A stretch of DNA of 64,000 nt from Sodiomyces alkalinus F11 (Eukaryota; Ascomycota; Sordariomycetes; Glomerellales; Plectosphaerellaceae): positions 976,836 through 1,040,835 of the forward strand of contig NW_021167081.1 of NCBI RefSeq assembly GCF_003711515.1, given 5' to 3'. The notes under the pieces were generated by a model. The model was not told where the DNA came from. It searched no databases and saw only the letters and a list, made by a program, of their open reading frames with translations. Shown one piece after another: positions 25,711 to 58,625 of the stretch. The translations under genes were made by a program, and so were the position numbers. Numbering within the stretch: position 1 is the first letter of the stretch; each line of letters begins with the position of its first letter.

Positions 25711-27959
25711 TCATGCCATTTCTTCAACCGACACCGACTTCGCTCTTTGCCGGGTGGCCTTCATGCTCACGGTGTACACCAGATCAATCGTCCAGAGGTG
25801 GCTTAGTTGTGCGTGGGCGCATGGGATGGAGCCGTAAAGGGGCGCCACCACAGGGACCATGATGTAGTCAATGAAGTTCTTCTTGACGCCGCGGTAGGAG
25901 AAATCCAAGCGGTCGGCAAGGCCCGCTTCAGTCATCTCACGATGTCTGTTTTTGACAGCGACATCGTGGTAACGCTCGTAGAGGAAAAGGATGCAGGCTA
26001 CCTCCATGAAACTCACGGTGCGGAGAACGTTGGCAGCGGTGAAGGCCCACGCGATGTTGTTAGGATCTCCGTTCCCTTCAGCGACCCAAACGTAGAGAGT
26101 CGAAGAAATGACGAGGATGGCCATCTGGACGGGCAGGAAATGCGCTTCATACAGTCGGTGTCCGAGGTAGAAGATGCGCTCCCAGTGAGGGCTCGGCAGA
26201 GTGTCGTGAGTGACGTCAGAAAAGATGCCGCTTTCCCGCGCTTGCTCGGGATTCCGTTCGTCCATTTGACTCTCGGGCACGTAGACGTCTGACGCGTCTC
26301 CAAGAGAGGTGTGCAGAGGTCGAAACGCCCTGGACGTGTGCTTCCGCTCCTGCCAGAGTTCGACAAATTTACGAATGGAATAGCCCGTGTCCAAAGCTCC
26401 CCACATATGGCGGAGAGCCTGCTTATACCGAGCTTGCATGCCAGCATAGAGACCTCGAAGCCCCTTTCCACTGGCAGCTACATTGCTTTGGCTGACGGGA
26501 CTGGGCAAGACACGGCAAGTAAGATTGCCATTGAGGGCAAAGAAACACTTCAGGAACATGTGCAGATCCTCGCCAATGGCCTCGGCGTCGCAATCCCAGC
26601 CTCCCACGCGATCAACCAGTTGTAGAGGGACGGAGTAGACCGAGGTGGGGGGCGCAATGGTCGACCCGTTGTAGAGGCCAGACAGGCCTGCTGCGCCCCA
26701 GAAGATGTCAGCGACGCGCACAATTGCCGGGACGCCGTGGGCATTTCTGTCGAAGATGATGGGCGCCGAGTACATCGTGGTCATGGCAGTTTCGGGATAG
26801 GCAAAGTGCATCGTGGCGATGAGAGCGGTATAGTTGCTAGACAGATGGCTGTCGGCTGGAGACAAGGGGAGTACGTCAGCACACACAAGATCGCAAAATG
26901 TACACATGTCAATGAGGAGATATTTACCGTCAATTCCCGTGATGACGACGTCCTTCCGGACTTCCATGGAGTACCTCTCACTGGCTTTCCGAGCAGCCCA
27001 GGCCATGTTGCTTCCCTTGCCCGCAGATTCCCCTGGGATATCCGCAGGGTGAACTGTATAGTTGATACTGCGGAATTTCTTCGCGTATAGCTGGACGAGA
27101 TTACCGGCCTTGACCTGGACATTCGGTTCGCGCGACTCCATTGCAAGATAAACCTGTGCCAAGTTGGTGTCAGCCGTTACAATGCGAACTCCAAAAACAG
27201 AGATGGCTGAACACATCAAAGCCAACAAGAAGAAAAAAGGCGTAGGAAACTCACGTCATATGAAGCCGTGGCTTGTGGGTGCGAGGCCAAAACGTCGAGA
27301 GTCTCCCGCAATGTGTCTACTTCCTCCTTGTAGTTGGGTATGACGATGGCGTGAATGACGGCAGTGGCGGCCTCCTCGCTGGCTTCGGGATAGGGTTGAA
27401 GGTCGATATCGCCGGCTTCGCTGCTCGAGGCGGAACAGGCGTGAGAGGAGGTCAGCGTTTCGGCGCTCGAGAGAGACGTAGAGGAACCGCGGCGACGATG
27501 GAGCGACTTGAAGTCCCGTAAAATCCTGCTACGGGCCGTCTTCCTGAGTGTTCGCGTGAGGTCGAAGATGGCCCAGCAAGAACGGGCAGGGAAGAGACAC
27601 ATGAGGGCATGGACGAAGAGGCTGTAGTAGGCGAAAAGGGCCGTCAAAAAGCCTGCTCCCTTATCCGGTGACCCATTGGCTGTCACAGCGACACCGGTCT
27701 GTTGGCTATATTCGAAATTATAACGAGAAGCGGCCAATTCTCTCGAAATGACCCAGTAGCACAACATAACCAGGGCGATCATGGCCAGGCCGGGGGCGCG
27801 ACGAGAGCACCATAGTAACAATGACATGACGACGAAGACGACAACCAAGGCCAGGAAAGAGAAACGAACACCCGGGAAGAGGAGAGGCGGGCTGGAAAGG
27901 AGGGAGGAAGGGAGAAGGAGGAGGGAACGGACGAGAGAGAGGTAAGGCTGGCTAGACAC
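25711..27959 (-). CDS. Membrane family-2 glycosyltransferase (N-terminus uncertain)
   Basis: Three exons on the minus strand: 27959-27255 (5' limit uncertain), 27153-26928 and 26855-25711. From the first in-frame ATG (27827) the protein has 647 residues; the open frame extends 44 codons further upstream without an ATG, and those codons complete a hydrophobic segment, so a short 5' exon is likely missing. GT-A motifs are present: HAIVIPNYKEE, the DxD at GIDADSHL, GEDLHMFLK and QALRHMW (QxxRW-like). There are hydrophobic segments at both ends. This is the architecture of processive membrane glycosyltransferases such as chitin or hyaluronan synthases, but it is a separate fungal group; the product is unknown. 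An exopolymer or wall polysaccharide is an inference. Confidence 0.82.
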
Positions 27960-33233: not shown

Positions 33234-34821
33234 ATGACTACCCTTTCGTCGCCGTCTTGCGCTTGCAGCGTTCAAGGCGACGAACCGGTCGATGTCGCAG
33301 TATCCTCGAGTGCCCAGGCTCAGGGTAACATCCGCCCTCGGAGACGTCGACATTCCTTCTTTCTTCCGAGGAGAAAGTCCATCATCGGCCACATCATCGA
33401 TACCGAGGAAGGCCTTCTTTTGAAGGTTCGTGCTTTTATTCGCAGTCCCACGGTGCATGTCATTGCTTGGTTGCCACTAACTCGCTTACCAGGTCGACCT
33501 CTTCCTGTCGGAACTTGAACGACGGCTCGACTTTATCGAAAACCATGGAGACCCGCTCGATTCCAGCATAAGCAGGGCGTTTTCGACTCTTCAGGCCGTC
33601 CGAGAAAGATGCTGTCAGGCATCCGAAGAGGTTCTAGGCGAGGGACGTCGGCGTCTACATGTCATGGTCGAGACCCTCGAAGCCAGATACCATGAAGGCT
33701 TGACGTCGGGCGAATCCCTACATGAAAAGGCCCGCCTTGGTCTTGAGCTCCTGGAAGGGATGCTCTCCGAATTCGAGACTCGGGCCTATAAGTTCCGCGA
33801 GCAAGGACTCGCCAACGCTGCCGGTGCCGCTGGCGCATTCATGGAGGAGAGCCGAAGGGTCGTCGACAAGGGAATCGAACGCGCCCGAGATGCCGTTGAC
33901 GAAGGTATCGAGCGAGCCATGCGAGCAGCCGAAACACTAGAAGAACATATCCAATACGCCATCGTTCGGGCCAGGGAGACCGGCTTGATTGTATATGACG
34001 AGCTGCCCGTCCCATGGAGGGTCAACCCACACATCAGGAAAGGGTACCGTTTCACCGAAACCAAAATCGAGTGTATCCGGTCTGCCTTCGGCATCCATAA
34101 TGAGTTCTTCAATATCTGGTCACACGCACTGGGTCTGGTTGTAGTTCTCGCCGTCGCCCTATACTTTTACCCTCGGAACGACAACTTTTCTCTGAGCAGC
34201 CAAACCGACATCTTCATCGCCGCCGTCTTCTTCTCTACCGCTTGCTTGACCCTTGTCTGTTCGACCGTTTGGCACACAATGAACGCTGTCGCCGATATGA
34301 ATGCCATTTCCTTATTCGCTTGCGTGGATTACACCGGAATCTCATTGCTCATCGCTGCGTCCATCATGACGACTGAATACACGGCGTTCTACTGCGACCC
34401 CGTCAGCCGTTGGATCTACATGTCAACGACTGCCATCTTGGGAATCGGAGGTGTTATCTTGCCTTGGCATCCGACTTTTAATGGGGCGGACATGGCCTGG
34501 GCTCGAGTCGCCTTCTTTGTCGGCCTGGCTGCTACGGGGTTTGCCCCCATTATCCAGTTGTACTTCAGCCACGGCCCGAACTTCGTGTTGGAGTTTTACT
34601 CGCCCATCGCCAAGTCGATCTGCGTGTACCTGGTGGGTGCTTGCGTGTACGCTAGCCAGGTTCCCGAGCGGTGGTTTCCAGGCATGTTTGACTACATCGG
34701 CGGCAGCCATAATCTGTGGCATCTGGCGGTCCTTGGCGGCATCCTCTTCCATTACACTGCCATGCAAGCCTTCTTTACCGATGCCTTTCGCAGGGCTGAG
34801 GGCCAATGCTCTCACTATTGA
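33234..34821 (+). CDS. IZH3: PAQR / adiponectin-receptor-like protein (IZH3-like, long N-terminus)
   Basis: Two exons (33234-33425 and 33493-34821) give 506 residues. The N-terminal about 240 residues are helical and charged (RRLDFIENHGD, ERARDAVDEGIERAMRAAET), which matches the extended IZH3-type proteins rather than the short IZH1/2/4. The HlyIII/PAQR core follows: PWRVNPHIRKGYR, GIHNEFFNIWSHALG, CSTVWHTMN, CVDYTGI and the C-terminal SHNLWHLAVLGGILFHY, carrying the Ser/Asp/His residues that bind Zn in the family. Seven membrane segments are visible. PAQR proteins are putative ceramidase-like receptors of the plasma membrane or ER, linked in yeast to zinc and sterol homeostasis. Confidence 0.92.
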
Positions 34822-36306: not shown

Positions 36307-37995
36307 ATGGCCCCCCAACCCGTTGCCCTCTATGGGCTCGAGATCCCCCCCGGCGTTTTGGTCCCGGCCGCGCCTGATTTCCCGGCTTCTGTAAGTATCG
36401 GAATGCATTTGCTCTGCTCTTTGCCAATTGCGATGCTTGTTCAATTCTTGGCTAACAGGGCATGCAGTTCCACATTACCATGGCTGCCGTCGACCCTACC
36501 GAGCAGCCGGAAGCCGACGAAGATGGCAACGTTCCTTCTGTCCCCCGCTCCACCCTTCGTCTTGTCAAGCAGCGCCTCGGTGATGACCTCGATGATGACG
36601 ACGAGGTTGATGAGGAGTACATGAGGGCGCTCATCGCCGCCTCTGGTGATGATTCTGAGGACGAGTCTGACGACGAGGCCAACGGTGGACCCAGCGACCC
36701 TTCCAAGAAGAAGAAGGGCACCGCCCAGCTCCTCGAGGCCCTCAAGAACGCCCAGGACGATGAGGACTCGGAGGATGAGGAGATGACCGATGCCAAGCCC
36801 AACGGCACCAAGTCCGACAAGAAGGGCAAGGCAAAGGCCTCGAATGATGACGAGGAAGAGGAGGACAGTGACGACGACGACGACGAAGATGGCGCCGACC
36901 TGGAGCAGTATGTTATCTGCACACTTGACACCGAGAGGGTAAGTACACATTGTCCCGCATAGCAGCATATACTCTTTCTCCGGAATGGCTCGCTAACCAG
37001 CTCCCCCCGCAGAACTATCAACAGCCCCTGGACCTCCATGTCGGTGAGGGTGAGAAGGTTTTCTTCATTGTCAACGGTACTCATACCGTCCACCTCACCG
37101 GCAACTACGTTGTCGATGACGAAGAGGAAGATGATGAGGACGAGGACGAGGACGATGAGGACCTCTACGACATGGCGTCGGACGAGCTCTTGGGTGGCGA
37201 GCTAAGCGACGATGAGAGCGACGAGCTCGACGGTGTCGAGAACCCCCGCGTCACTGAACTCGAGTCGGACGAGGAGGAGGCTCCCAAGCTGGTTTCTGTC
37301 GGTGAGAAGAAGAACAAGAAGAAGCGTGCGGCCGAGGAGGCTGACGGCCTCGACGAGCTCATCACCAAGGATGAGGAGTCCAAGCTCTCTAAGAAGCAGC
37401 TGAAGAAGCTGAAGAACAACAAGGGCGAGGCTGTCCCGGCCGAGGAAGGCAAGGGCAAGTCGGACAAGAAGGTCCAGTTCGCTAAGAACCTGGAGCAAGG
37501 TCCCACTGGCTCGGGCGAGAAGGCCAAGTCCGGCAAGGCTGCCTCGGGCGTTAAGGTTGTCCAAGGCGTCACTATCGACGACCGCAAGGTCGGGGAAGGC
37601 CGCGTTGTCAAGAACGGCGACACGGTTGGGGTGCGCTACATTGGCAAGCTTCAGGACGGCAAGGTCTTCGATGGTAAGTCCCTATACTACCTACCTACCT
37701 AGGCTTACTATTCCCCCTATCTCTCTTCTCTTTCTTTCTCTCTTTTTTTCCCTTTTTTTTTCCGAAACTAACTTGTTTTATTTTCACAGCCAACAAGAAG
37801 GGCAAGCCTTTCTCTTTCAAGGTCGGCAAGAACCAGGTCATCAAGGGCTGGGACATCGGTGTCCTGGGAATGAGCGTCGGCAGTGAGCGCCGTCTGACCA
37901 TTCCTCCCCATCTGGCCTACGGCTCCAAGGGTCTGCCCGGCATTCCGGCGAACAGCACTCTGGTGTTCGACGTCAAGCTGCTGGAGATCAAGTAA
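36307..37995 (+). CDS. FPR4: Nucleolar FK506-binding prolyl isomerase (FPR3/FPR4 type)
   Basis: Four exons (36307-36390, 36468-36938, 37013-37673, 37790-37995) give 473 residues. The N-terminal nucleoplasmin-like domain ([11 protein letters not shown], then ATLRLV-type [11 protein letters not shown]) is followed by acidic blocks and a Lys-rich region, and then a C-terminal FKBP domain ([62 protein letters not shown]). The domain order is that of yeast Fpr3/Fpr4, histone chaperones and proline isomerases acting on H3/H4 tails and rDNA silencing in the nucleolus. Residues of the FKBP pocket (Tyr, Asp, Trp, Tyr) are present. The last intron has a long pyrimidine tract. Confidence 0.95.
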
Positions 37996-39545
37996 ACGAG
38001 CTCGCTACCCTCCTCACCTGAGCCGCGTCGGTCCGTTGGGTCCCTTGGCCTGATTGTCGACGCAGCAATGTGCTGTATTCTACATGCCAAGAGAGCAAGG
38101 CACCGTCGGATCGGAGGGCTGGGTCTTGTCGACGTTCAATCGGAACTCGACCTCAAGCTCCGGCCGCCGTACGATCCGCACCTGTCTCCTACCTGGCTCC
38201 TATGAACTTGGTTTTTGGTCTGGTTTCGTCTCGTTCCACTTAATTGTTAGGTTTGCCCCATCATTCAGGAACAAGAGGACCGCTGGGTACGCCTCAACCT
38301 CACCTACTCTTTACGAAATGCCGTGTCGAAGAGTCTCCGACCTTGCGGCAATCTGCGAGGATCCGTGCATCCCCCCCCAAGATCCCTTTGGTGGACGGAC
38401 ATGGTGCTGAGCGGGAAGCAGATTGTGTTGGAATGGGATGACGAGGCGAGGTTTCCGCATTGCATTGGACGGCGTCGGGGAGAAAAAATATTAGGCTTTC
38501 CTTTCTTTGTTTTTCTTTGGTTATAATCGCCTCAGTAAGAAGGATGGATTTCATCTATGGTATTGCTGCTGAACTACCTGAGGGTCCTCCGTTCTGTTAC
38601 CAGAGGCTATGTATGTACGTACTTCAGGACGCAATATGCGCAGACTGCTCAGTAAGGTATTGAATAAGGGATTGTCCATATGTCTTTAACATGCCCAACA
38701 CCTGTGCAATGACTATTGGCCCCAGCATTCTGCAAAGTCAGCGAAGACCATTAGTGGTGAGCAGGTTCCGTTTATTATAGCTGGTCGCGTGGCTGCGGTG
38801 GCCAGAGTCTATGGGTGCGGATCTGTTGTATTATTCGGCGCAAGTGGTATCATATATCCAGACAAGGTGGACTTGGAAGGGCCGATAAACTAAGGTAACT
38901 GATGGGCCAGGAACATGGGCCAAGTCGTTCCCTGGAAGCAACCAGCAATACTTTTTGGGAAGGACTCAACTACAAGACCCCTATCTTTCCCCATGGCGCG
39001 GTGTGGCGAGATGAATTAGGGTTCAAGGGGTGTCTACTGCTCCCGAACCCCTGAGCCCCTGAACCCCTGAACCCCTGAACCCCTGAACCCCTGAACCCTC
39101 TACCTGAGTTGTTCCTGCCTTGTCTAGGTACCTTACCTATACCTAAGGTATCTAGTCCTCCCCAAGGTCATTAGGGTATTTGATACGCCATCCACTTTAC
39201 ATCCTCACGGTAGACGCCTGCCTCCTTGCTTCACTCCCCCTTCTTACTGTGTACCTATATATTTCTCTTTCCACCAATATATACTCTACTCTTCCTCTCT
39301 TGCTCACCCCCCATAGCTTCTCCTCTCCCCTTCATTAGCAGACTTCAATATCGCCTCGTAAGCTGGGAGCAGGACTCTGGCTAGCTTGAACCTCCGTCTT
39401 TCGTTTTCAATGACCATTTCCAGTTCACGATAGTCCTTCAGACTCTATTCAGTCCCCTTCGTCATCCTTTCTACGGGCCCCGGAAACGAGGTCTCTCCCC
39501 AGTGACTAGCACTTATCTACCTAGCCCAGTTGATCCATTTCGATC
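37996..39545. other. 1.5 kb spacer and kinase promoter
   Basis: FPR4 3' UTR followed by the promoter and leader of the interrupted kinase. It contains the GAACCCCT minisatellite (39045-39098), a GGTACCTTACC..CCTAAGGTA inverted pair (39126-39150) and a TATATA/pyrimidine-rich zone (39254-39310). No coding exon was supported. Confidence 0.55.
39045..39098. repeat. 8-base minisatellite, unit GAACCCCT
   Basis: About 6.7 tandem copies of an 8-base unit; the second copy differs (GAGCCCCT). A near-complementary GGGTTCAAGGGG lies just upstream at 39020-39031, so the region could form a hairpin. It sits about 450 bases before the kinase ATG. Confidence 0.85.
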
Positions 39546-42341
39546 ATGACCCATCGGACTCCGGTAAGTAGCCCTGGAACCGGCCGTCTCGACCCTGATT
39601 CTAGCACGAGGGACGAGTTTCTGACAGCTACTCAAAAGCCTTCCGATGGATTTACATTTTTATGCTCCGACGGGGCCTGTACAGATAGTAACCCGTCCTC
39701 AACAACAGTGCCGCGAGGTCAACTTCTCGGCAGAGCAGGACGAGCCATGAACAAGTTAAACCGCGCAATTCATCGAGGTAGCTCTTCTCTCTCTGTTTTG
39801 TGCCTTTCAGACTGGAACCCGCTTGCTGACCATCCATCGTCCTGCTACTAGCTCCCGGTTCTACGGCATTTCGGGCAACCACCGCGGCTCAAGTTACCCC
39901 GTCGGGGCAGAGAGACACCGCGAAAAAGAAGTCGGGCATTCTCAGCCCGTTGGCACAGCCATTCCCCTTCTTCCGCCAGCTCCAAAGTAGCAAGGATCAC
40001 CCGTCGCCTCCGCTTGACCTGTACCCGATCGAAGTCAAGGTCCGAGCTATAGAGAAGGCCGCATTGGCCAAAATCTTCTTCGAGACTTACTACAATGAGC
40101 TTCTGGACGACCGCCCGACGTCACGCTCCGTGCGCCTCAGGAACTTCAGAGACCAACTCGATAACAATCCACTCTTGCGTCCCGAAGCAAGGGAAAGACT
40201 CGAGGCGGCCTTCTTCCACCAGGAGAGTGCTCATCTCCGGGAGTACAGGACCCTACAGTGCCAGAGTCTCAAGGCTGCCACTGGCCGTATCGAGGACGGC
40301 CGTGGTCCCTGTTTGCAGAACTACAAGAGCATCAAGATTCTCGGCAAAGGAAGCTTTGGCGTCGTAAAACTGGCGCGGGAAATCCGTCAAACCCAGACGA
40401 CGAACGATTATGGACTTGGTGGAAAACTGTTCGCCGTGAAGGTTATCAAAAAATCGGACATGATTCGGGGTTGCCAGGAAGGCCACCTGCGTGCGGAAAG
40501 GGACTTTCTCATTGCTTCCGAAGCCTCTCAGTGGTAAGTCTACGCCTGCCCCAAACCCCCGATGTGGTTCCCCGTGCTGAGTCGGACACTTACCCCTTCC
40601 TCAGGATCGTCCCTCTCATTGCCAGTTTCCAGGACGCCACCAGCCTGTACCTTGTTATGGATTATATGCCCGGGGGCGATTTCTTGGGGTTCCTCGTTCG
40701 CGAGAACATGTTGAATGAGAATGTTGCGCGCCATTACGTTGCCGAGATGATCGTCTGCGTGGAAGAGGCCCACCGGCTCGGCTTTATTCACAGAGACGTC
40801 AAGCCCGACAACTTCCTGATCGACGCCCGTGGACACCTGAAGATTTCCGACTTTGGACTGGCCTTCGACGGGCGATGGCCTCACGACAAGTTGTACTACC
40901 AATGGCATCGCGAGTCTTTGCTACGGAAGCTGGGTATCAAGCTCGACGGCGACAGGGAGGACAGAAAGGAAAAGACTTCGAGGTCGTCCAAGCGGCGTGA
41001 GAACCGAGAGGCGAACCGCCGGCATGCGCTGCCGCCCGCCCTCCAGGCCAGCGCGAGTTCCGAAACTTAGGGAGGGATTCCGCTGGTTGGACACCTGCTT
41101 GACTGGCGGGCTACCCGGAATCGCTCCTTTGCACAGTCAGTCGTCGGCACCAGCCAGTACATGGCCCCAGAAGTAATCGACGGAGACGAGTACGATGGAC
41201 GATGCGACTAGTGGAGTATTGGCATCATCCTGTTCGAGTGTCTGTACGGCCATACTCCTTTTCTCGATGTAAACGGTCGGCGCCAGACCAAGTTAAATAT
41301 CCTGGTAAGTCGACTTCCAAGGTTGGCCATTTCGGGCCCCTGTGTGAACATGTTGGCCTCCGAGATGGACGTTTAAGCTCACATCGGCCGAAGAAGCACA
41401 ACCATACCCGTTTCTCGTTCCCCGAAGAGCCCCGGGGCATCAGTTACGAATGCCAGGACTTGATTCTGCATTTGCTGCGAGACAAGAGAGACCGCCTTTC
41501 CTCGTACAAGTACCGGGAACAAGACATCCACATGGCGTTCGACTTGGCCTTCCCTCCTTGCCAATATGTGTTTGACGAGGACGACGCCGTGGATATCAAG
41601 AGACATAGCTGGTTTAGGGGCATCGATTGGCAGAACTTGCACCGCACGCTCCCTCATTTCGTACCCTACTTGCAGAATCCCGAGGACACGCGCTACTTTG
41701 ACGAAGACGAACCCATCGCAGACTGGTCTGAATCGCTCGAGGATGATCAGCACAGCGAGCCTCCCGAGCCCCCTTGTTCGGCCAAGAAAGTGCGTCACGT
41801 CTTGCGTCGCGAGGGATTTGGGAGCAGGAGCATCAATGACTTCTTGAGCTTGATCGGGGAGCCGTTCGACTCGACCAGACTCCGCCAGATTGATCAGGTG
41901 ATCGACACGTTCGCCCGCCTCAACGAGAAGGGCAAACAGCTCCTCAAACATTACGTCCGCAAGTTCGGCCAGATGGAGCGTAAGCGGGCACGAGATATTC
42001 TCCTCCGCGACCGACGCACTCGGCGAGATGTCATGGCCATTCGGAAGCAAAAGGCGTTCACTGGGTACACGTGGAGGCGAGCACCGTCTCCGCCTCGCGT
42101 CCCGACGCTTGAAGGGTCGGTCCAGGTACCGCTAGGCTGTGATGGGAGTCAGCAGTCAGGGGTACCCTTCCGGGAACAGTTCATGTACGATGGTTACCCG
42201 CCGGCGTACGGGATGCAGCCACTGTACTGGGACGGAAATGGCCAGTGCGAGATTGCCGGGAGGCGGTGTTGGGATCCTGCTTCATACCAGCAACAACAGC
42301 CTCTGGGGAGGTCGTATTACTGGGAAAGGGGGTTTCTGTGA
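39546..42341 (+). CDS. NDR/LATS-type AGC kinase, PUK1-like, interrupted by in-frame TAG codons
   Basis: Four exons (39546-39777, 39852-40533, 40605-41304, 41397-42341) join in frame to 853 codons. An NDR-type Mob-binding region (KAALAKIFFETYYNEL) precedes the kinase domain: G-loop GKGSFGVV (about 242), AVKVIKK with Lys274, HRDVKPDN with Asp369, DFGLA (387), a kinase insert, GTSQYMAPEV (about 487-495), and a C-terminal hydrophobic motif FTGYTW (759-764). Two TAG codons interrupt it: codon 460 (41068-41070) in the insert and codon 507 (41209-41211), where it replaces the first Trp of D-W-W-S-I-G. No TAA, TGA or frameshift was found. From family knowledge, Fusarium PUK1 has TAG stops in its kinase domain that A-to-I editing turns into TGG in perithecia. 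Recoding is my inference; a young pseudogene is the alternative. The acceptor at 41396 could be one codon earlier. Confidence 0.85.
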
Positions 42342-45482: not shown

Positions 45483-45807
45483 ATGGACGACTTGGATCTC
45501 CCCGATGCTCCTCCCCTTCCTGAGCCGGTACCCAAACGTCGAAGGGTCGCGACGGCTCGCACAAGTCTCAGCTCCGTCCCCCGCTACAGCTCGCCCGACG
45601 AGCTTACAACAGATATTAGGGAAACCGCCGCTACTCGCCGCATCTCCATTAGGCGAGGGAGGCTCAGCAGATCCCCGCCAGGCCGATCCAGCGAAGATGA
45701 GCTCAACGGTGCATTCTACTCCCCTCCCCCCAGGTCAACGTCTCCCGGTCGCTCCAGACCAAAGTCGTCCAGGCCAAAGCCACAGTCGAGGTCTAGGTCA
45801 AAGTTAA

Positions 45808-45850
<43 letters not shown>

Positions 45851-47599
45851 AATGAGGCGAAGATCACCCACTTCAGTCAGGTCAACGTCGCCGGGAGACG
45901 TAAGATCGAGACCTCGAAGGAGGAGTCAGTCCCGATCCTCGATGCCGTCCCATTCTCGCTCTTCTTCCTTCTCCCCCGACCGGCGCTCGTCTCCTTCAAG
46001 GTCGGGCAGCCCGTCGAGACTCAGCGCCGGGTCGCCATCACGGTCACCATCCCCATCCCACTCCGAGCCGAGGTCACCTTCCGTTACATGCTCTCCGCGA
46101 AGTCTCACCGAGAAACTACAACACCGCCTCCACCTCTCTCCCGAACCTCCACCCCCACCGCCGCCACCGCCACCTCGCCAGCCCGCCCGCCCAGATTACC
46201 ATCCCCACATGACACTTTCCGGCCATAGACAGGCCGTCTCTCAGGTCCGAATCTCCCCAGACGGCCGCTGGATCGCCAGCGCCTCAGCCGACGGCACCGT
46301 CAAGATCTGGGATGCAGCCACCGGGGAACACATGGATACTCTCGTCGGCCACATGGCCGGTGTCAGCTGCGTCGCCTGGAGTCCCGACGGCGGCACCCTC
46401 GCCACCGGCTCCGACGACAAGGCTATTCGCCTCTGGGATAGGGTCACCGGTCGCCCCAAGCTCAGCGCCAAGGGGATCCCCCGCGGCAAAGAAGGCGTCG
46501 CGCGCCCCATGCCTCCCTTGCTCGGACATCACAACTACGTCGTCAGCCTTGCCTTCTCTCCCAAGGGGAACATCCTCGCCTCTGGTAGCTACGACGAAGC
46601 CGTGTTCCTCTGGGACGCCAGGGCCGGCAGCTTGATGAGGAGCTTGCCGGCCCATAGTGACCCGGTCAGCGGCATCGGTTTCTGTCTCGACGGCACCTTG
46701 GTCGTCAGTTGCTCGACCGATGGTCTTATGTATGTTCTTTTCGTTCTCTTTTTTCTTTTGGACTGTCACTCCCCCTTCCCTCTATCCCATGCCGCTTGAC
46801 ATATTTCATGCCGTCTTTTTTTGCTGACATTTCCTCGGGGGTCTGTCCCCCCTGCCTTAGTCGCATCTGGGACACATACACCGGCCAATGCCTCCGAACC
46901 CTCGTCCACGAAGACAACCCAGCCGTGACGTCTGTCTGCTTCTCTCCCAACGGTCGCTTCGTTCTAGCCTACAACCTTGACAACTGCATCCGGCTCTGGG
47001 ATTACGTCTCGGGCACCGTCAAAAAGACGTACCAGGGCCATCGCAACGAACAGTTCGCCATCGGGGGTTGCTTCGGCCTCCTGCCCCTCGAAGAACCGGA
47101 ACAACCTGAAGCCAGTCCCGATACCAAAATCAATGCCCGAAACGGGGATTCGTTGAACGGCACAGTGAGTGACGGTGGCCGCGGCGGCGGCGGAGGAGGA
47201 GGCAGCACCCGTACCACCGCCCAGGGGCAGCTGCAGGTCCCGTTTATCGCCAGCCCCAGCGAAGACGGCGACGTCGTGCTCTGGGACGTGACCTCCAAGG
47301 AGGTAGTGCAGCGTATCAGCGCCCACCCGGGTCACGTCTGCTTCTGGGTCGACGTGCTCGGCGACACCATGGTCACTGCGGGGCAGGACGGCAGTATTGG
47401 CGTCTTTAAGCATCGGAGCTCCGCGGCCAAGTCTGCTCTTCCTGGGAATGCCGCAGAGGAGGAGCCTGTTCTCAACGGGCATGCCGGCATGGCGAATGGC
47501 GACAGTGCTATGTTGGATCCGGCCATGCAGACGGGTGAGGGTACAGATCTGCGCATCAAGATGGAACAAGAGATGGATGTGGATGTAAATGGCTCTTAA
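45483..47599 (+). CDS. SWD3: SWD3/WDR5-like WD40 protein with SR-rich N-terminus
   Basis: Two exons (45483-46729 and 46861-47599) give 661 residues. Residues about 1-235 are disordered and rich in Arg-Ser dipeptides, ending in a proline run. The WD40 propeller follows: TLSGHRQAVSQVRISPDGRW, SADGTVKIWDAATGEHMDTL, TGSDDKAIRLWDRVTG, SGSYDEAVFLWDARAGSLMR, STDGLIRIWDTYTGQCLRTL (across the splice), NLDNCIRLWDYVSGTVKKTY and SEDGDVVLWDVTSKEVVQRI. The order and spacing match Swd3/WDR5 of COMPASS, which methylates H3K4. Typical Swd3 is 320-450 residues, so this one is long, partly from the SR tail and a Gly-rich insert near the sixth blade. Assignment to SWD3 rests on blade similarity; a spliceosomal WD protein is less likely. 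Confidence 0.82.
45805..45850. repeat. Hexamer repeat AAGGTC inside the SWD3 coding region
   Basis: About 7.5 tandem copies of a 6-base unit. Read in frame as AGG TCA it encodes an Arg-Ser dipeptide run. Because the unit is a multiple of three, length changes keep the frame and only change SR tract length. Confidence 0.9.
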
Positions 47600-47930: not shown

Positions 47931-50900
47931 TTATATCGTATCCCAACCGCCAATGTTGACCTCAGCCTCAAGCTTACGGCTGATAAAACTGGGGATGCCA
48001 TGGCTGAGGAAGGCCTTGCGGAGCATAGAATCGTACCGCCGTTGATTGAGGAACAGTTGCCGGCCGTGGCGGAGATTGGGATCCGTCTCGCCGTACTTGT
48101 CCATGTAGGGGGCAGTACTATATGAACCAGACATGCGGAAGAAAAAGATTGTGCTACACTTGCGGATGTTGAGGAAGAGCCCTATGTTTTTCTGACACCT
48201 GAAGATTTGGGACGCCGAGTCAGCATATCGTTCCATGAAGAAGGGGGGAAAAAAGAAGAAGAAGATAAAAGAAGATATAAGGGAAACGTACTTGCGCATG
48301 TGCTGCTGACAGCCGCCGATGCGTTGCGGTACCTGGTCGCTCGGCGTCGACTCCTCCTTCAAGCAGCACACGGCCTGCGCACAAAAGACGTCGCCGCAAA
48401 ACAGACAAATGCTGGGGTCAGTCAAGTCCATGCCCGTCGTGGGGCACTTCCTGCGCGATGCCTCCTCGATGAGCATGTCGTACAACTTGGGCAGGCCCAC
48501 GAGCTCGAATATGCCCGGATGGCTGAGCTGCGCAGACGGCGGCAATCCCTGCTCCTCGATGGACCCGGGCCACATGATCTGGTGTCTCACCCAGCCGCTG
48601 ACGAGGCCCGACGTGGATGCCGGCCAACCAAACCGCGGCGCGTACTCGGTCAGCGAAGTACACATCTCATCGAACGTTGGAATGCGCAGCGCGCCCGTGA
48701 GGCGCTCGAGCTCGTCCGCGTCGGGTTGGGGGGATATGTGGCTGTTGAAGTCCAATCCGCACTTGACGTACAAGAGGACGGTGCACTTTCGAAGGAACGT
48801 GAGGGCGTACTTCCTGGTGAAGGCGTAGTAGCTTTCCAGGCTGTCGAGCTCGGGCTGCGCAAAGGCAGGGTTGACGTCTGCCGGCGACGTCTCGTCCAAG
48901 GCGGTGATATCCACGCCCATCCTCGTGACGGCCAGGCAGAATTCCGCGAAATTGTCCAAAGCAGCGTCTCTGCCCTGGCGGTTGATGAGATGGCTGACCC
49001 AGATCCTCAGAGGGACATTCCTCGCCAGGTGGTAGACGACCTTGACAATCTCGGCCAAGTAGCAGAGCCGGAGAACGTGCATGACGTCGAAGTCCTGTGC
49101 CACAACGACACCGAACACGCACTCGGTGAAGAAGATGAAGTTGTCTTGACTCATCAGGGGCGGGTAGATATCCACAGGCCGCCTCGTGTTGTCCGTCTCC
49201 TCACCGAAATACTGCGACATGAATAGCTGGCAATGCTGCCTTTCGCTGTCTCTCCGGAACTCCTCCTCGATCCGGTTATCGCCTCCGGCCTTCAGACCGC
49301 CGATGGAAATGTACGACGACGTCGTCTCGGCCAGGATTCGCAGGTGGGTCAAGGTCTGCTCCGGGGTGCTGTCCAACAGCGTTTTGCCATACTGGGCCTC
49401 CACGCCGCGCTGTTGGATCTCCGTGGCGGAGACGGAGTACCCAACTGCCTGGACCAGGACGTCGCTGTAGAGTATCTCGTCGCGGTCTCGCACCTCTCTG
49501 GGGTCGACTGGATGCCGCGTCCGGAAACTGTTCTTCTGAATGGTATCCCGAAGCCGCCTGTAGACTCTGACTAGCTCGCCCACGATGCCGACTTGTTCAT
49601 TGCGCCGCGACCGCCGCGACAAGAGCGGTGTGTTTACCACAGAGAAGACCGAGTTCAGCGGGGTAACGGCTGGGAGACCTTCGGACAACTCCTCCGTGGA
49701 CCAGGCCTCCTCGACAAGTTGCGACGTCTTCTCCGCCACTGTGCTTGTAACATCAGCCTTGGTATAATCCGTGAAGGCATCCTGAATTCTGTCAGGAGGA
49801 CGCGCGGCACCACGTATGTAGTAGCCCGAGCGCATTTGTGTGTCCAGGAACTCCCCGAATACTCTTTGCGACTGCGCCACGCCAGGATACGACTCCTCCT
49901 TGCCTTTCCAGATGACGGGGAGGAAGGCATTGCCAAGAGCCTTGCAGAGCGGGCAGATGAATTCTTTTTGTCGTAGGTTCTCGGGATGGTGTCGGGCGAT
50001 TTGATGCTGATGCCTCCTGTGTGTCGCATCGATGTACGTCTCGAAGCAGGAGAAGTGCATCATGTGGCCGCAGCCGACCGACAAGGGGCCCTGCCGACAC
50101 AGCTTGGACGGAAACCCCTTGCCAATGGTCTGCCGCTCCGTAGTGAAGAATTCCCCCCTGGCATTGACCTTGGTTACCTCCTGTCGGTTCTCGCGCGCTA
50201 CACCGAATGGCCTGATATCCTCCGCGGACCGATCCAGGTTGCTCGGCGTGTGGAACGCCTCACGCACGAAATCCGGATCCTGCAAGTCGGTCTGTCGCAG
50301 AATCATGCTTTCATTGATCATGGCGAACGTGCCATAGAGGCGACGGTCGTCGGTATCTTCCTGGCAGAGGATGCATGTTCCCGCGGGATACTTCCAAATA
50401 TTCTTCCGGTCTTCCGCTTGCTCGAGTTCTTCATCAGAGCCCAGGTCGGAGCCCCAGTCAATCTCGCACTGGTTATCCATGAAGCTCTTCTGTTGCTGTT
50501 GGAACTGGGCCATGACTCTAGCCTGGCGACTCAGTGCTGCCCGCTTCTTCCTCTCGCGCTCCTCTTCCGCCGAGGCGATAGCCGGAGAGGCAGCGTGGAT
50601 CCGGTCCACGGGAATACCCAGGCGTATGTATGCGCCCTCAAAGGTGCGCGGCCTCTTTTGCCTCATCCGCTTGAGGATGAGGGCGATCTTCGAGTGGCAT
50701 GCCTTAAACTCGTCGTCGGTCGACATCATGTCCAACAAGGCGACAATCGTCTTGGCATTCGGCGCCTCCGGCATGAAATTGCTTCGCCCATGTCTCGTGA
50801 GTGCCAGAGAGACGAACGAGTTGGGGGACTCCTCTTCCATCATGTCGTTCTCATCCGTGCGGTCCTCCGCAATGGCAATCAAGACTAGGTGGAGGACGAT

Positions 50901-53900
50901 CTGCAGGAACGTCTCGACCCGCGTCGAGGGGACGGTGGGGGTGAACTTGGGGGCGACGAGGGGATAGAGCAGCGCATAGTAGATAATCTGCGCGAACATG
51001 CCGGTAGCAGTAAAGGCCGAGAGGTCCTTGAAGAGACCCGAAGGTATCGGCCTGAGTTTGGGTTCGTACACGACTTCTTCGACGGGCTTCCCGGTTCTCA
51101 CCGCCATCTTGTTGCGGTACACCGTCTCCGACTCTTCTCTCTGGTTCTTGTTGAAGTGGGCAATGTACGGATCGACAGAGTCGAGGTATTCCGCCTTGAG
51201 CTCGAACATGCCCACATCAGAGTCACCCTCGGGAGGCTTGAATACCGCCATCTCGTCGAGGATTTCATGGAAGTCCTCCGATTCCTGGAACTTGTCGGGC
51301 ATCTTATTGGAGATCTCGTTGAAAGATAATGGTCTGCAGCAGAGAGTGTGGACGATGTCGCGACGGATGGCCATGGCGGTGGGGTTGGGTTCATCCTCCA
51401 AGGCGATGAGCGAGGTGCGGTCGCTCAGGAGTACAATCAGAAGATGGATCATGTCTTCCACGACATCCAGGTGTTGGGAATCGTCTTGCCCCTTGGTCTT
51501 TTGTTCGAAGATCCCCTTGACCCATTTCTCCATGCCGAACCTGTCGATGATGGAGGCCAAAACCCGACTGGGATCGCAGACAACCATCGCGGTCTGCAGA
51601 AGGAAGATGTCACGATGGTGTGAGACATCCCTCTGGTTGACGCCGCGATAGGTCCCCGCTTGATGCCGGAGGCTCATGCCGTTTCGAACCCACATGTTGG
51701 CCTTGATCTGCGCTAGCCAAGCGCACACGCGCAGCGGATAGTCGAAGGCGGCCATGAGGTGATCGTCGGGGGTATTCTCCCGCCTCGGCATGGTCTTGCG
51801 ACCCATCGACTTGGGCTGCATCATCAGCTCCTGGGTCGTAAAACTGAGAAGTGCCCGCATGCTCAAGGCGGGGAGCGACTTGCCGCACTCGACCAGCCAC
51901 GACAAGGTGTAGTGGAGCGCATGGTGCAAACTGATGGGTTCCTCTTCCACGACGAACTTGACCACGTCGTACCTGCTCGACTCGCCGTCAAACTCGAAGT
52001 CTCCCAGTGTCTTGAACCGGACTTCGTCCTTGATCTCGGACGGCTTGAAGCGAAGACGCTCGGCACCGATGGAATTGAGAATGACGGCCTTGGCGGTCAG
52101 CCGTATGGCTCGGGCGACAAAATGGCTTTCACTTTCGGGAACGTTCTTGAACGATTCGGCGAGCTGTCTTGCGAGCCTGTTGATTTCGCGCGTGACAATG
52201 GAGGCGGTTATCCAGCTGTCCGTCTCGTACTCCACGTGCTCGCCTACAGCGCGCGTGTTGGGGCCGATGCCCTGGTGCAGCTTGACGAGATCGAGGAACT
52301 GCATCAGGTAGCGCTCCTCGCATCGCAACTTGTCCTGGACGTGGGGGGAACCGAACAGGTATTTCAGGTGCAAGTAGAGGTGGAACATTCGCCTGTTGGT
52401 CACCGAGCCGGAGTCGAAGGCCAGAAAGGCGTTGGACGAGACGTCCCAGGGATAGCCGACTTGCCTGGTGGTCAAGAAGGTGTAGAGAACGGCGAGTAAG
52501 GTCGTCAGAAAGTTACCACGCTCCACGATCTCGGCGGTGATGGAGGGCGTCGTCAACATCTGGAGTGACAGATTGATAATGGAATGGTCGGGTTCTCGAT
52601 CCCCGATCAAGTACAGTTGGGCCAGGGTAGTGTACAGGCCGGCGAAGCGCAGACCAAGAATGCGTTTGAACTCGGGAATGGATACGACAGTTGATATGTA
52701 GAGAGACCGCAGGTCGTTCCTCATCTTCTTCCACATGCGCAGGTCAAACAAGATGAGCCAATCGAGGCGGACTCTCTGGAAAACGTCCTCGGCAGGAGGG
52801 ACGTTACCGCGATCCATGTACCCTGGTGGCGTCTCCAGCCAGTAGCGACCCGGCTTCGGCGGCGGTGACTTGTCGGTTTGGCCTAGGATTCTAGGAATCT
52901 CCAAGTTGGCTTTGGCGTAGATGGCGGGCGCGATCAACGGTTCGGCCGTGTCGGAATCGGATGGTGTGACGTCCCTCTCCCTCCCAGCCCTCCGCGGGAC
53001 GGCAGCCGGGGCTGGCGGCGGCGGAGGAGGAGGCGGCGGAGGAGGAGGCGGCGGCGGATAGCCGGCCATAGTGGCCTCGTCTTCCTCCAGGGCCTGATCC
53101 GGGCCACGCCAGTCTACGGCGGTGCCAAGGTCTCCTCCTCCCGCTGCTTCAACCCTCACGTCGACCATCATGACATCGTCGTCGTCGTCGTCTTCGTCAT
53201 CCTCGTCGCCATCTCCACCGGCATCGGTAAATGGCGTTATACCACCCTCGACCCTACCCATATCGATATCCTCTTCGTCGGAGACGTCGCCGTCATCATC
53301 TGCCGGCTGTACCGGCAGGTCCTGCATCTGAAGTATCTGCATAACAAAGCGATGGGCAACGGTGGCTTGCATGTCTTCCCCCCGAGCCAGTCCTTCTTCG
53401 TCGTATATGCCGTCTTTCCCCACCTTGGCGTGGACTCCAGAGCTGCCTTTGCGCCAGGGCCTCATCATTTCCTGGCAAACAAGGATCCGCAGGATGTTGT
53501 GATCGCTGCCGACGCTGCAGCCGGAAATATCGCTCAGCCACTCGACCATGGTGCCGCACATTTGCTCTCGGAAGGTATCACGAGCCGAACGTATTGTCAC
53601 GGTCACCTTGATCTCTTCGATTTTCTTAGCCATCTCGAGAAGGCGATCGAGATTGTCCAGATGCTTGAGAATGCTCCGGCCGATGGCATCCGTCTCGGTG
53701 GCATGGGCCAAGCCCACGGCCTCGGTGGTGGAACAGGCACGGGCGACCTGCTTTTGGACGTCTTCGACGCTGTGCTTCTCGTCGTTCCAGAGCACGAGGG
53801 AGAACTCGGACGAGCCTTCCGGTCCCTTCCCGTAGGCCTCGGGGGAAAGCTGGGACATCTGTTCGTCCTGGCGAATGGAGTCGGCGGTCTTGGTCTGGCG

Positions 53901-54530
53901 GAGCTGCTCGGGGGAGCACGAGATGACATCGCAGATGTAATCGAAGACGCGGCCGATGGTCATACGCATGCTCTGAACTAGCTCGTCGGGGAGGCCGGCA
54001 CCCGGGCCGGCACCGGCGGCCTGCTTGCCCTTGCCACCGTTGCGCAAGCCGGAGGGATCTTCGGAATGGATGGTGCAGAACATGGGCACCCTCCAGGCCT
54101 CATCGTCGCCACAGTCGCAGCAACCGCTATTGCCGACCGAGATGGATATGCGAACCATATGGCCCTCGTGGTCGGTGGCATCGAAGCATCGACTGCAGAG
54201 GACGCAGGTCTCGTCGGTGCTGCAGGTGCGGCAGGAGTAAGAGGCCTCGCCGGCTTTGAAAATGTGACCACATCGCTTGCCGCGGGCGGCTTCAGTATAT
54301 TCAGCGCCTTCAACAGCACCCTGGGCGTCGTGAAGCTTCATGTTGTGGGAAGGGCGACCCTGGGGGAAGAACAGGCCCATGTAGCGTTCACCCCCCGCAA
54401 GAGACCAGAAGAGACTCTCTAGGAGGTCATGGGCGGCAGACGGCGAATAGCGGTAGTTGTATTGAGCAGGCATGTCTCTGAGAAACTCGCAGAGCTGCCG
54501 CTCCTGCGTAGACATGGGAGACTCCATCAT
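47931..54530 (-). CDS. UBR1: N-recognin E3 ubiquitin ligase UBR1
   Basis: Two exons (54530-48292 and 48198-47931) give 2168 residues. The order of domains is that of Ubr1: UBR box at about 85-158 (GKRCGHIFKAGEASYSC, CVLCSRCFDATDHEGH, CCDCGDDEAW), a ClpS-like N-degron pocket near 242-285 (FSLVLWNDEKHSVEDV), an acidic stretch and a 15-residue proline run near 490-507, the RING at about 1383-1525 (CILCQEDTDD, GCGHMMHFSCFE, FICPLCKAL) and a C-terminal autoinhibitory region (NIGLFLNIRKC, GSYSTAPYMDKYGETDPNLR). It ubiquitinates proteins with destabilising N-termini in the cytosol. The intron (48199-48291, 93 bases) is a multiple of three without a stop, so unspliced RNA stays open. The long open frames on the opposite strand are shadows. 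Confidence 0.95.
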   Translation of the reverse strand: MMESPMSTQERQLCEFLRDMPAQYNYRYSPSAAHDLLESLFWSLAGGERYMGLFFPQGRPSHNMKLHDAQGAVEGAEYTEAARGKRCGHIFKAGEASYSCRTCSTDETCVLCSRCFDATDHEGHMVRISISVGNSGCCDCGDDEAWRVPMFCTIHSEDPSGLRNGGKGKQAAGAGPGAGLPDELVQSMRMTIGRVFDYICDVISCSPEQLRQTKTADSIRQDEQMSQLSPEAYGKGPEGSSEFSLVLWNDEKHSVEDVQKQVARACSTTEAVGLAHATETDAIGRSILKHLDNLDRLLEMAKKIEEIKVTVTIRSARDTFREQMCGTMVEWLSDISGCSVGSDHNILRILVCQEMMRPWRKGSSGVHAKVGKDGIYDEEGLARGEDMQATVAHRFVMQILQMQDLPVQPADDDGDVSDEEDIDMGRVEGGITPFTDAGGDGDEDDEDDDDDDVMMVDVRVEAAGGGDLGTAVDWRGPDQALEEDEATMAGYPPPPPPPPPPPPPPPAPAAVPRRAGRERDVTPSDSDTAEPLIAPAIYAKANLEIPRILGQTDKSPPPKPGRYWLETPPGYMDRGNVPPAEDVFQRVRLDWLILFDLRMWKKMRNDLRSLYISTVVSIPEFKRILGLRFAGLYTTLAQLYLIGDREPDHSIINLSLQMLTTPSITAEIVERGNFLTTLLAVLYTFLTTRQVGYPWDVSSNAFLAFDSGSVTNRRMFHLYLHLKYLFGSPHVQDKLRCEERYLMQFLDLVKLHQGIGPNTRAVGEHVEYETDSWITASIVTREINRLARQLAESFKNVPESESHFVARAIRLTAKAVILNSIGAERLRFKPSEIKDEVRFKTLGDFEFDGESSRYDVVKFVVEEEPISLHHALHYTLSWLVECGKSLPALSMRALLSFTTQELMMQPKSMGRKTMPRRENTPDDHLMAAFDYPLRVCAWLAQIKANMWVRNGMSLRHQAGTYRGVNQRDVSHHRDIFLLQTAMVVCDPSRVLASIIDRFGMEKWVKGIFEQKTKGQDDSQHLDVVEDMIHLLIVLLSDRTSLIALEDEPNPTAMAIRRDIVHTLCCRPLSFNEISNKMPDKFQESEDFHEILDEMAVFKPPEGDSDVGMFELKAEYLDSVDPYIAHFNKNQREESETVYRNKMAVRTGKPVEEVVYEPKLRPIPSGLFKDLSAFTATGMFAQIIYYALLYPLVAPKFTPTVPSTRVETFLQIVLHLVLIAIAEDRTDENDMMEEESPNSFVSLALTRHGRSNFMPEAPNAKTIVALLDMMSTDDEFKACHSKIALILKRMRQKRPRTFEGAYIRLGIPVDRIHAASPAIASAEEERERKKRAALSRQARVMAQFQQQQKSFMDNQCEIDWGSDLGSDEELEQAEDRKNIWKYPAGTCILCQEDTDDRRLYGTFAMINESMILRQTDLQDPDFVREAFHTPSNLDRSAEDIRPFGVARENRQEVTKVNARGEFFTTERQTIGKGFPSKLCRQGPLSVGCGHMMHFSCFETYIDATHRRHQHQIARHHPENLRQKEFICPLCKALGNAFLPVIWKGKEESYPGVAQSQRVFGEFLDTQMRSGYYIRGAARPPDRIQDAFTDYTKADVTSTVAEKTSQLVEEAWSTEELSEGLPAVTPLNSVFSVVNTPLLSRRSRRNEQVGIVGELVRVYRRLRDTIQKNSFRTRHPVDPREVRDRDEILYSDVLVQAVGYSVSATEIQQRGVEAQYGKTLLDSTPEQTLTHLRILAETTSSYISIGGLKAGGDNRIEEEFRRDSERQHCQLFMSQYFGEETDNTRRPVDIYPPLMSQDNFIFFTECVFGVVVAQDFDVMHVLRLCYLAEIVKVVYHLARNVPLRIWVSHLINRQGRDAALDNFAEFCLAVTRMGVDITALDETSPADVNPAFAQPELDSLESYYAFTRKYALTFLRKCTVLLYVKCGLDFNSHISPQPDADELERLTGALRIPTFDEMCTSLTEYAPRFGWPASTSGLVSGWVRHQIMWPGSIEEQGLPPSAQLSHPGIFELVGLPKLYDMLIEEASRRKCPTTGMDLTDPSICLFCGDVFCAQAVCCLKEESTPSDQVPQRIGGCQQHMRKYVSLISSFIFFFFFPPFFMERYADSASQIFRCQKNIGLFLNIRKCSTIFFFRMSGSYSTAPYMDKYGETDPNLRHGRQLFLNQRRYDSMLRKAFLSHGIPSFISRKLEAEVNIGGWDTI

Positions 54531-57389: not shown

Positions 57390-58625
57390 CTAGGTGGCCC
57401 AAATGACAAGTCTTCCATCGACACCGGTGGCTGAAAGGTTGAGGTTAGCAACAATGGTGGGCATAACAAAGGGCCCATGTTGAAAGCACTTACAGGTGAA
57501 CTTTGTGACGCGGTCGCCAGAGGTTTCAAACGGCCGGATGGTAGTAATGGTGTTCTGGTGGACTGTCTTGAGCTGCGTGTCGTCTTTGGCCTTGCCTCTG
57601 AGGTCCATCTGCCTGAACATGTTCAGCGCGGATTCTTCGCGCGCCTCCCCGAGGCCAGGGCGACCCTTCGCCTCGAGGCTTCCAGCAAGTTGCCACCCTC
57701 CCTCTCCACCTTTGAAACGGAAGGCTTCACAGTCATAGCCGGCAGCGATGATCTCGTCTTCAGCGCTCCACAAAAGGCTCATGAAGGGCAGAAGTTGGGC
57801 CGTGATAGTGAGCACCGCTCGCGGCGGCTGCTCGGGGCCGCCGGGATAGACCACCGTGACGCTGCTGTCGTGCGCTGCGAAGGCCAGGGCGTCTCCGCTA
57901 GGGGAGAAGGCGACCGAATGCACCCATCCAGCCGAGTTGTTCAAGTACTCCCCGCATACGGTGTTGAAGGGGAGCCTCTCACCCCAGAGCGTGGGCTCGG
58001 GGCGGGCATCGGTGCCCTTGATGAAGCTGGAGAAGACCCTGGCGTGTGCGTCGGTCGAGCCTGCAGCGAGGAGCACCGAGTTGGGGTGCCAGGCCACCGA
58101 GGTGATCGTGCTCCGGATCGGCTTCTTAAGATGCTTCGAGACCCACCAGTCGTTCTCCTCCTCAAAGTAGCAGATGGCAATCAGCCGGTCTCCCGAACCG
58201 ACGGCGAACTTGGTCTCGTTGGGCGACCAGCGGACGAAGGTCGCCGCTCGGGTGATTCGAAGCAGTACGAGGGTCGGCTTGTACCCGGTAGGCGATGGCT
58301 CCCACACGAGGGCATTACGGTCTGTGTAGTAGCGATATTATATTAGCTGGGTTCTGACGGTGGTGGAGCTGCTGTTTTTGAAATGGGGCGACAAGCTCTT
58401 ACCCTGAGAGCAGGTGACAATCCGTCCGCTGTTCGGAGCAATATCCACGCTGGTGACCAGCTTGTCGTGGCCCTTCAATTCATCCTTGAGTTTGAAGGCG
58501 TTGCCGACCTTCCCATACAACTCAATGGTCGAGTCGCGAGCGACTGCAACGGTCGTGCGATCGGCTGAAAACGAATGATCGGCGATGGGATTGTGGAAGA
58601 GGTGGTGGATTTCTGGGGATGCCAT
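57390..58625 (-). CDS. ARC40: Arp2/3 complex 41 kDa subunit (ARPC1)
   Basis: Three exons (58625-58403, 58321-57494, 57430-57390) give 363 residues, the family length. It is a seven-bladed WD40 protein: LFHNPIADHSFSADRTTVAV, LKGHDKLVTSVDIAPNSGRI, CSQDRNALVWEP across the splice, VRWSPNETKFAVGSGDRLIA, the ARPC1-typical VSKHLKKPIRSTITSVAWHP, AGWVHSVAFSPSGDALAFAA, ITTIRPF and the last blade TSTGVDGRLVIWAT. ARPC1 is part of the Arp2/3 complex that nucleates branched actin at cortical patches during endocytosis. The last exon is only 41 bases. It is divergent from the U2B'' gene. Confidence 0.94.

Follow-up and report, generated by a model that had tools for sequence, protein, structure and literature searches.

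A PUK1-type kinase gene of Sodiomyces alkalinus with a stop codon at the known recoding site and a second in-frame TAG

The PUK1 gene of Fusarium graminearum (FGRRES_01058) carries a stop within its kinase domain that is corrected from UAG to UGG in the mRNA, and it is needed for normal ascospores (Liu and co-workers; PMC4817773). The stop is a tandem TAGTAG in this species. The likewise NDR-type kinase gene stk-21 (NCU03242) of Neurospora crassa reads TAG-TGG at the same motif, F. verticillioides reads TGG-TAG, and all three are edited in perithecia (PMC4817773). Two genomes, those of Magnaporthe oryzae and Claviceps paspali, have TGG TGG at the PUK1 site according to the same source, and the literature consulted names the site for a few species. 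The expression of the PUK1/STK-21 kinases and their role in ascospore formation have been published for both F. graminearum and N. crassa (PMC4817773, PMC7306014), and non-editable alleles fail to complement (review PMC7306014).

Editable stops of this kind also mislead annotation. Faced with an in-frame stop, gene-finding programs postulate a spurious intron or close the gene there, as with CHE1 of F. graminearum, whose conserved editable TAG causes automatic models to leave out the site or terminate at it (PMC11169179). CHE1 differs from the kinases in that it encodes a zinc-finger factor, is edited in hyphae, and has its conservation reported for closely related Fusarium.

Here we describe an NDR/Cbk1-type kinase gene from Sodiomyces alkalinus F11 (Sordariomycetes, Glomerellales, Plectosphaerellaceae). 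The gene lies at 39546-42341 on the forward strand of the window, which is the whole 64-kb stretch of DNA that was analysed, within a host genome of 43.4 Mb in 22 contigs. Its four exons, with borders inferred from sequence, join into a frame of 853 codons (Table 1). A sequence-only reading of the window had proposed four exons in one frame free of TAA, TGA and frameshifts, with the catalytic motifs, the APE and the hydrophobic motif all present. Reconstruction of the frame agrees on each of these points: no TAA, TGA or frameshift precedes the terminal TGA, and HRDVKPDN, DFG, APE and FTGYTW are found in frame. The same reading was wrong to call the gene otherwise intact, because there are two in-frame stops before the terminal TGA, both TAG. 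One is at codon 507, as had been noticed, and the other is at codon 460, 47 codons upstream.

Table 1. Features of the kinase gene and of other genes in the window (positions in the window)
Feature	Position	Strand	Remarks
Exon 1	39546..39777	+	ATG at 39546, open frame, GT donor at 39778
Exon 2	39852..40533	+	kinase domain starts here (GKGSFGVV); Pkinase for this piece at E 0.13 only
Exon 3	40605..41304	+	HRDVKPDN, DFG, TAG-460, APE, TAG-507
Exon 4	41394..42341	+	C-lobe remainder, AGC tail, hydrophobic motif FTGYTW, terminal TGA at 42339
TAG-460	41068..41070	+	in frame, SSET-TAG-GGIPL, activation-segment variable insert
TAG-507	41209..41211	+	first Trp of D-W-W-S, context GRCD-TAG-TGG-SIGIILFE
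Possible 78-nt in-frame intron, unlikely	40997..41074	+	GTGAGA..GGGAG, would remove TAG-460
Predicted RNA hairpin, A41069 of TAG-460 in 12-nt loop	41042..41091	+	-26.2 kcal/mol
Predicted RNA hairpin, A41210 of TAG-507 in loop	41187..41236	+	loop probability 0.81-1.0
Dopey	1643-3961
RRN3	18215-20272
SUN-family	22244-23632
Glycosyl transferase	25711-27228	-
HlyIII	33664-34821
WD40 protein	45483-46799
UBR1-like E3 ligase	47931-54530	-
WD40 protein	57390-58307	-

The pieces of exon 3 on either side of TAG-460 match the Pkinase family separately (E 3.1e-23 for 40606-41067; E 4.8e-05 for 41071-41208), and exon 4 matches Pkinase_C below the family cut-off (E 0.0048). A TTTAAG acceptor ending at 41377 is the more obvious one for exon 4 and was rejected when, worked by hand, it proved to break the frame. 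The acceptor chosen is an in-frame AG ending at 41393, preceded at a distance of 11 nt by a branch-like CTCAC motif, and it gives a spacing equal to that of Verticillium when read by eye. The Dopey, RRN3, SUN-family, glycosyl transferase, HlyIII, WD40 and UBR1-like genes of the window are ordinary neighbours. Tandem copies of the 8-nt unit CCTGAACC occupy 39042-39106, some 450 bases before the start codon of the kinase.

Comparison supports the identification of the gene as a PUK1-type kinase of the NDR/Cbk1 kind, as had been proposed, through the published TAG sites, the protein models of relatives and the conserved residues. The product has an NDR-type kinase domain, an AGC tail and a hydrophobic motif, and the solved structure that it matches best is that of yeast Cbk1 (PDB 4lqp; E 4e-67), which has the NDR fold in common, lacks an internal stop and is a relative at the level of a paralogue only. 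The 459-residue product that precedes the first stop has its nearest models, among the matches listed, in Verticillium and Sodiomyces alcalophilus (the latter 83% identical over 61% of the query), followed by Colletotrichum, Fusarium and others. These best listed matches, on which the comparison rests, are Sordariomycete models of one kind, and membership of the PUK1 orthologue group is putative. The gene is single-copy, its identity to the second-best match in the genome being 46%.

Among the matches listed there is no S. alkalinus protein model of the kinase, even though the Ame1 protein of this species is in the database, and its annotation there is probably missing or split for this locus. 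The S. alcalophilus model (P0002) ends at GRWPHDK, upstream of the equivalents of codons 460 and 507, perhaps through a further stop or as an artefact of the model. Positions 36950-37702, upstream of the kinase, are occupied by a nucleoplasmin-like/FKBP gene. A Stachybotrys model (P0137) has the kinase fused to the same two domains, which hints at a conserved neighbourhood.

The sequence-only reading had placed TAG at codon 507 in the context GRCD-stop-WSIGIILFE, and the frame bears this out. The published PUK1/STK-21 stops take the place of one or both Trp codons of D-W-W-S; here the first is replaced, and codon 507 with its neighbour has the Neurospora form, TAG-TGG. Judged by its place in the motif, codon 507 coincides with the editing site known from PUK1 and stk-21. 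The recoding site itself is therefore not new, since N. crassa stk-21 has the identical TAG-TGG (PMC4817773). The string alone carries no meaning, because TGYGAYTAGTGG occurs in the genome at chance level (five matches, and six for the reversed control). What goes beyond chance, on the evidence of the relatives listed, is the position of TAG-507, which is the codon where Sordariomycete models break. There are 17 in-frame introns that would take out codon 507, and all were rejected because the catalytic DWW motif would be deleted with it. Stops within the kinase matches of the genome were set aside as evidence, introns there having been read through.

Protein models of relatives provide an indirect view of this codon, in which a skipped motif is taken as a sign of a stop and species with several models are counted repeatedly. 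Our survey comprised 220 related proteins, drawn from the best 120 of 1747 matches in one search and the best 120 of 2425 in another, with 20 common to both. The first search admits only proteins of about 252-803 aa and the second favours complete models, so the fractions below are biased by these limits, the place of the gap less so. Classes and orders were assigned from printed names, and the class counts exclude 49 proteins without a name (40 intact, 5 ending at ..RCD and 4 at ..RCDW).

Alignment of orthologues had been suggested as a way to see whether a stop is kept at codon 507, and the Sordariomycete models listed mostly break there. Only 22 of 138 keep DWWS (one of them, P0121 from Colletotrichum tofieldiae, being labelled LOW QUALITY PROTEIN), while 92 skip it, 8 end at ..RCD, 2 end at ..RCDW and 14 end elsewhere. 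An end at ..RCD would correspond to a stop at the first Trp, and one at ..RCDW to a stop at the second. Among the 92 listed models that skip the motif, the sequence picks up again precisely at the second Trp in 16, at the following Ser in 28 and further on in 48; where a model resumes at the second Trp or the Ser, it looks as if the AG of TAG had served as the acceptor. Model coverage reaches its minimum at codon 507, at 0.24 for the 113 Sordariomycete models that remain when 25 early-ending ones are excluded, and it is 1.0 in Leotiomycetes.

The intact motif is unevenly distributed among the models listed. It is present in 8 of 9 from Diaporthales, 6 of 6 from Magnaporthales and 8 of 123 from other Sordariomycetes, as well as in all 32 from Leotiomycetes and the single one from Eurotiomycetes. 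Seven Claviceps models listed skip the motif, whereas PMC4817773 gives TGG TGG for C. paspali. Taken together, the models indicate that a stop at codon 507 is probably widespread in Sordariomycetes.

Fungal editing favours U at -1, 62.4% of the sites are in hairpin loops, and the more highly edited sites sit in more stable loops (PMC4817773). Both TAG adenosines of the S. alkalinus gene have U at -1 and a predicted hairpin loop. That of TAG-460 is unusually good, with a loop probability of 0.98-1.0 and a z-score of -2.40 over 61 nt, where 4 of 200 shuffles do as well, or -2.75 over 41 nt, where 1 of 200 does. For loop probability and energy jointly, TAG-460 is the best of 67 U-A sites at three piece lengths; for loop probability alone, 5 to 17 of the 67 equal it. 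Its flanks (U at -2, G at +1 to +3, A at +4) fit weaker published preferences, except for C rather than G at -3. The hairpin of TAG-507 is ordinary in stability, with a z-score of -1.40 over 41 nt and of -0.13 over 61 nt, where 86 of 200 shuffles do as well, and its loop probability and energy are equalled by 3 to 11 of the 67 sites, TAG-507 included.

The second stop changes what editing would have to accomplish. Because TAG-460 is upstream, translation would stop there first, and with two in-frame TAGs a single edit is insufficient: both must be passed for a full-length product, unless codon 460 is spliced out. The proposal that editing of TAG-507 yields the full-length kinase thus survives as to the recoding site, which the comparison supports, and falls short as to the single edit. 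Around codon 460 a conserved Trp is missing from the relatives, whose models show gaps or different residues, and a counterpart of this stop was seen in none of the relatives compared; TAG-460 is apparently lineage-specific. Here PUK1 and stk-21 differ, since the available accounts describe a tandem TAGTAG for the former and one stop for the latter, in place of TAG-TGG and a distant codon 460.

Splicing would make a single edit at codon 507 suffice, and 13 in-frame GT..AG introns of 45-220 nt would remove codon 460 and leave only TAG-507. The 78-nt example in Table 1 resembles a stretch that is missing from one V. dahliae model (P0005, 22 members), but another from the same species (P0003) retains it. 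Among the listed models that include the position, His-445 within this stretch is conserved in all 105 from Sordariomycetes and in 28 of 30 from Leotiomycetes. With GC at 0.69 and T at 0.10, the stretch is also richer in GC and poorer in T than the three introns accepted for the gene (GC 0.51-0.61, T 0.23-0.35), and it lacks a branch-like motif. Another candidate, a 74-nt intron that ends at TAG-460 and has the best-looking acceptor, was rejected since it breaks the frame (worked by hand; it is absent from the in-frame list). Codon 460 is very probably exonic, and we regard removal by splicing as unlikely.

Two premature stops, one of them at a place where relatives show none, could instead mean that S. 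alkalinus has lost a working kinase, and the model from S. alcalophilus likewise breaks off early. A decaying gene could well acquire two TAGs: among one-base routes from the kinase coding sequence to a stop, 160 of 308 yield TAG, and that both stops are TAG is no evidence by itself. Relaxed selection after the stop had been named as a sign of a pseudogene, and we examined conserved positions and rates for it. At positions at least 98% conserved, the gene keeps 35 of 35 residues after codon 507 and 17 of 17 between the stops, compared with 79 of 83 in the N-terminal kinase part. The Sodiomyces branch is no faster after the stops than before in six relative-rate comparisons with three Verticillium models and Colletotrichum or Clonostachys as outgroup (Fisher p 0.47-1.0). 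Because the Verticillium models skip DWW, these comparisons set two probably stop-bearing lineages side by side, and only the outgroups, one of them the low-quality P0121, are intact. Third-position GC is steady at 0.65, 0.63 and 0.70. Very recent decay would escape both the conservation and the rate tests, but what they find supports coding constraint retained downstream of the stops and lends none to decay. With 853 codons free of frameshifts, TAA and TGA, and with the 507 stop shared with an edited orthologue (PMC4817773), a pseudogene is an improbable explanation.

Full-length protein could also arise without editing, by translational read-through or a UAG-reading tRNA, which would account for two TAGs without TAA or TGA. 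Read-through is known for a CTA-type context, from which TAG-GGA and TAG-TGG differ. Published orthologues, moreover, are edited (PMC4817773), and we consider this route very unlikely. Scarcely to be credited is an origin of the stops in assembly error or RIP. A change of TGG to TAG is RIP-like on the opposite strand, but the RIP indices of the gene (0.69 and 1.03) are ordinary beside those of the window (0.74 and 1.10), the gene is single-copy and 12 Trp codons are left in its coding sequence. The 507 stop also agrees with published relatives (PMC4817773).

Tad2-Tad3 acting with Ame1, a DUF726 protein, was shown to edit mRNA (Feng and co-workers; PMC11087585), and this requires, in Fusarium, MV at Ame1 residues 500-501 in place of an ancestral KN (PMC11087585). 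DUF726 matches occur at four places in the host genome, in three genes. One gene (L015, protein P0221), assigned as the Ame1 orthologue by similarity, carries MV some 30 residues ahead of its catalytic Ser, and a TAA inside it falls within a 75-nt in-frame intron. Another (L014) has RN at the MV position, counted by hand, and the third (L016/L017) is more distant. Of 37 rows of Sordariomycete Ame1 relatives, 17 have no motif readable by pattern; the other 20 comprise 18 with MV, 1 with MT and 1 out of register by one residue. The MT row comes from Plectosphaerella, a member of the host's own family, and MV is therefore not universal. The 44 rows from Leotiomycetes read KN (38), KS (5) or KR (1). 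By their motifs, the genome also has a Tad2-like protein (HAE and PCVMC) and a Tad3-like protein of the catalytically dead type (HCV replacing HAE). These assignments support the conclusion that the genome encodes the Sordariomycete A-to-I editing machinery.

We therefore favour, as the likely explanation, that the gene is the S. alkalinus orthologue of PUK1/STK-21 and that both TAGs are edited in fruiting bodies to give an 853-residue kinase. Unedited mRNA would be translated up to codon 460, giving a 459-residue product from which the portions of the kinase domain with APE and DWWS would be missing. While fruiting bodies develop, Tad2-Tad3, directed to the mRNA by Ame1, would deaminate the A of UAG-460 and of UAG-507, and both codons would then be read as Trp. 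This mechanism would equal that of PUK1/stk-21. The editing itself, its stage, its occurrence at both sites on one molecule and the full-length protein are what we infer. The fungus is alkalophilic and forms cleistothecia with ascospores (PMC5706713), and in the open-access literature searched we found no paper joining Sodiomyces and RNA editing. The known PUK1 recoding site is here described in a new species, where its editing is predicted.

A broader history can be proposed, to which we give slightly less than an even chance. The DWW stop would be an ancestral Sordariomycete recoding site, fixed about when Ame1 gained the Tad3-binding MV, kept in most of the class while shifting between the two Trp codons, and lost in Diaporthales and Magnaporthales. 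S. alkalinus would have gained one more stop that depends on editing, placed in an exceptionally favourable loop, making a two-lock gene whose kinase is produced only where both sites are edited efficiently. The Verticillium models (P0001, P0003-P0007 and P0138) skip the DWW codons, yet their downstream part is conserved. The main Verticillium species have no known sexual stage. The skipped codons may point to cryptic sexual reproduction, or to editing that is not tied to the sexual stage.

The gene extends the best-known fungal recoding event to an alkalophilic, cleistothecium-forming fungus. Protein databases misstate this kinase gene, in that most Sordariomycete models listed are without the motif. 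Beyond annotation, the survey suggests that a single stop-correction site has been kept across much of a class, which runs counter to the published impression that individual editing sites turn over fast (PMC5381528). The two-stop form found in S. alkalinus would directly test whether two far-apart sites of one mRNA are edited in a coupled way.
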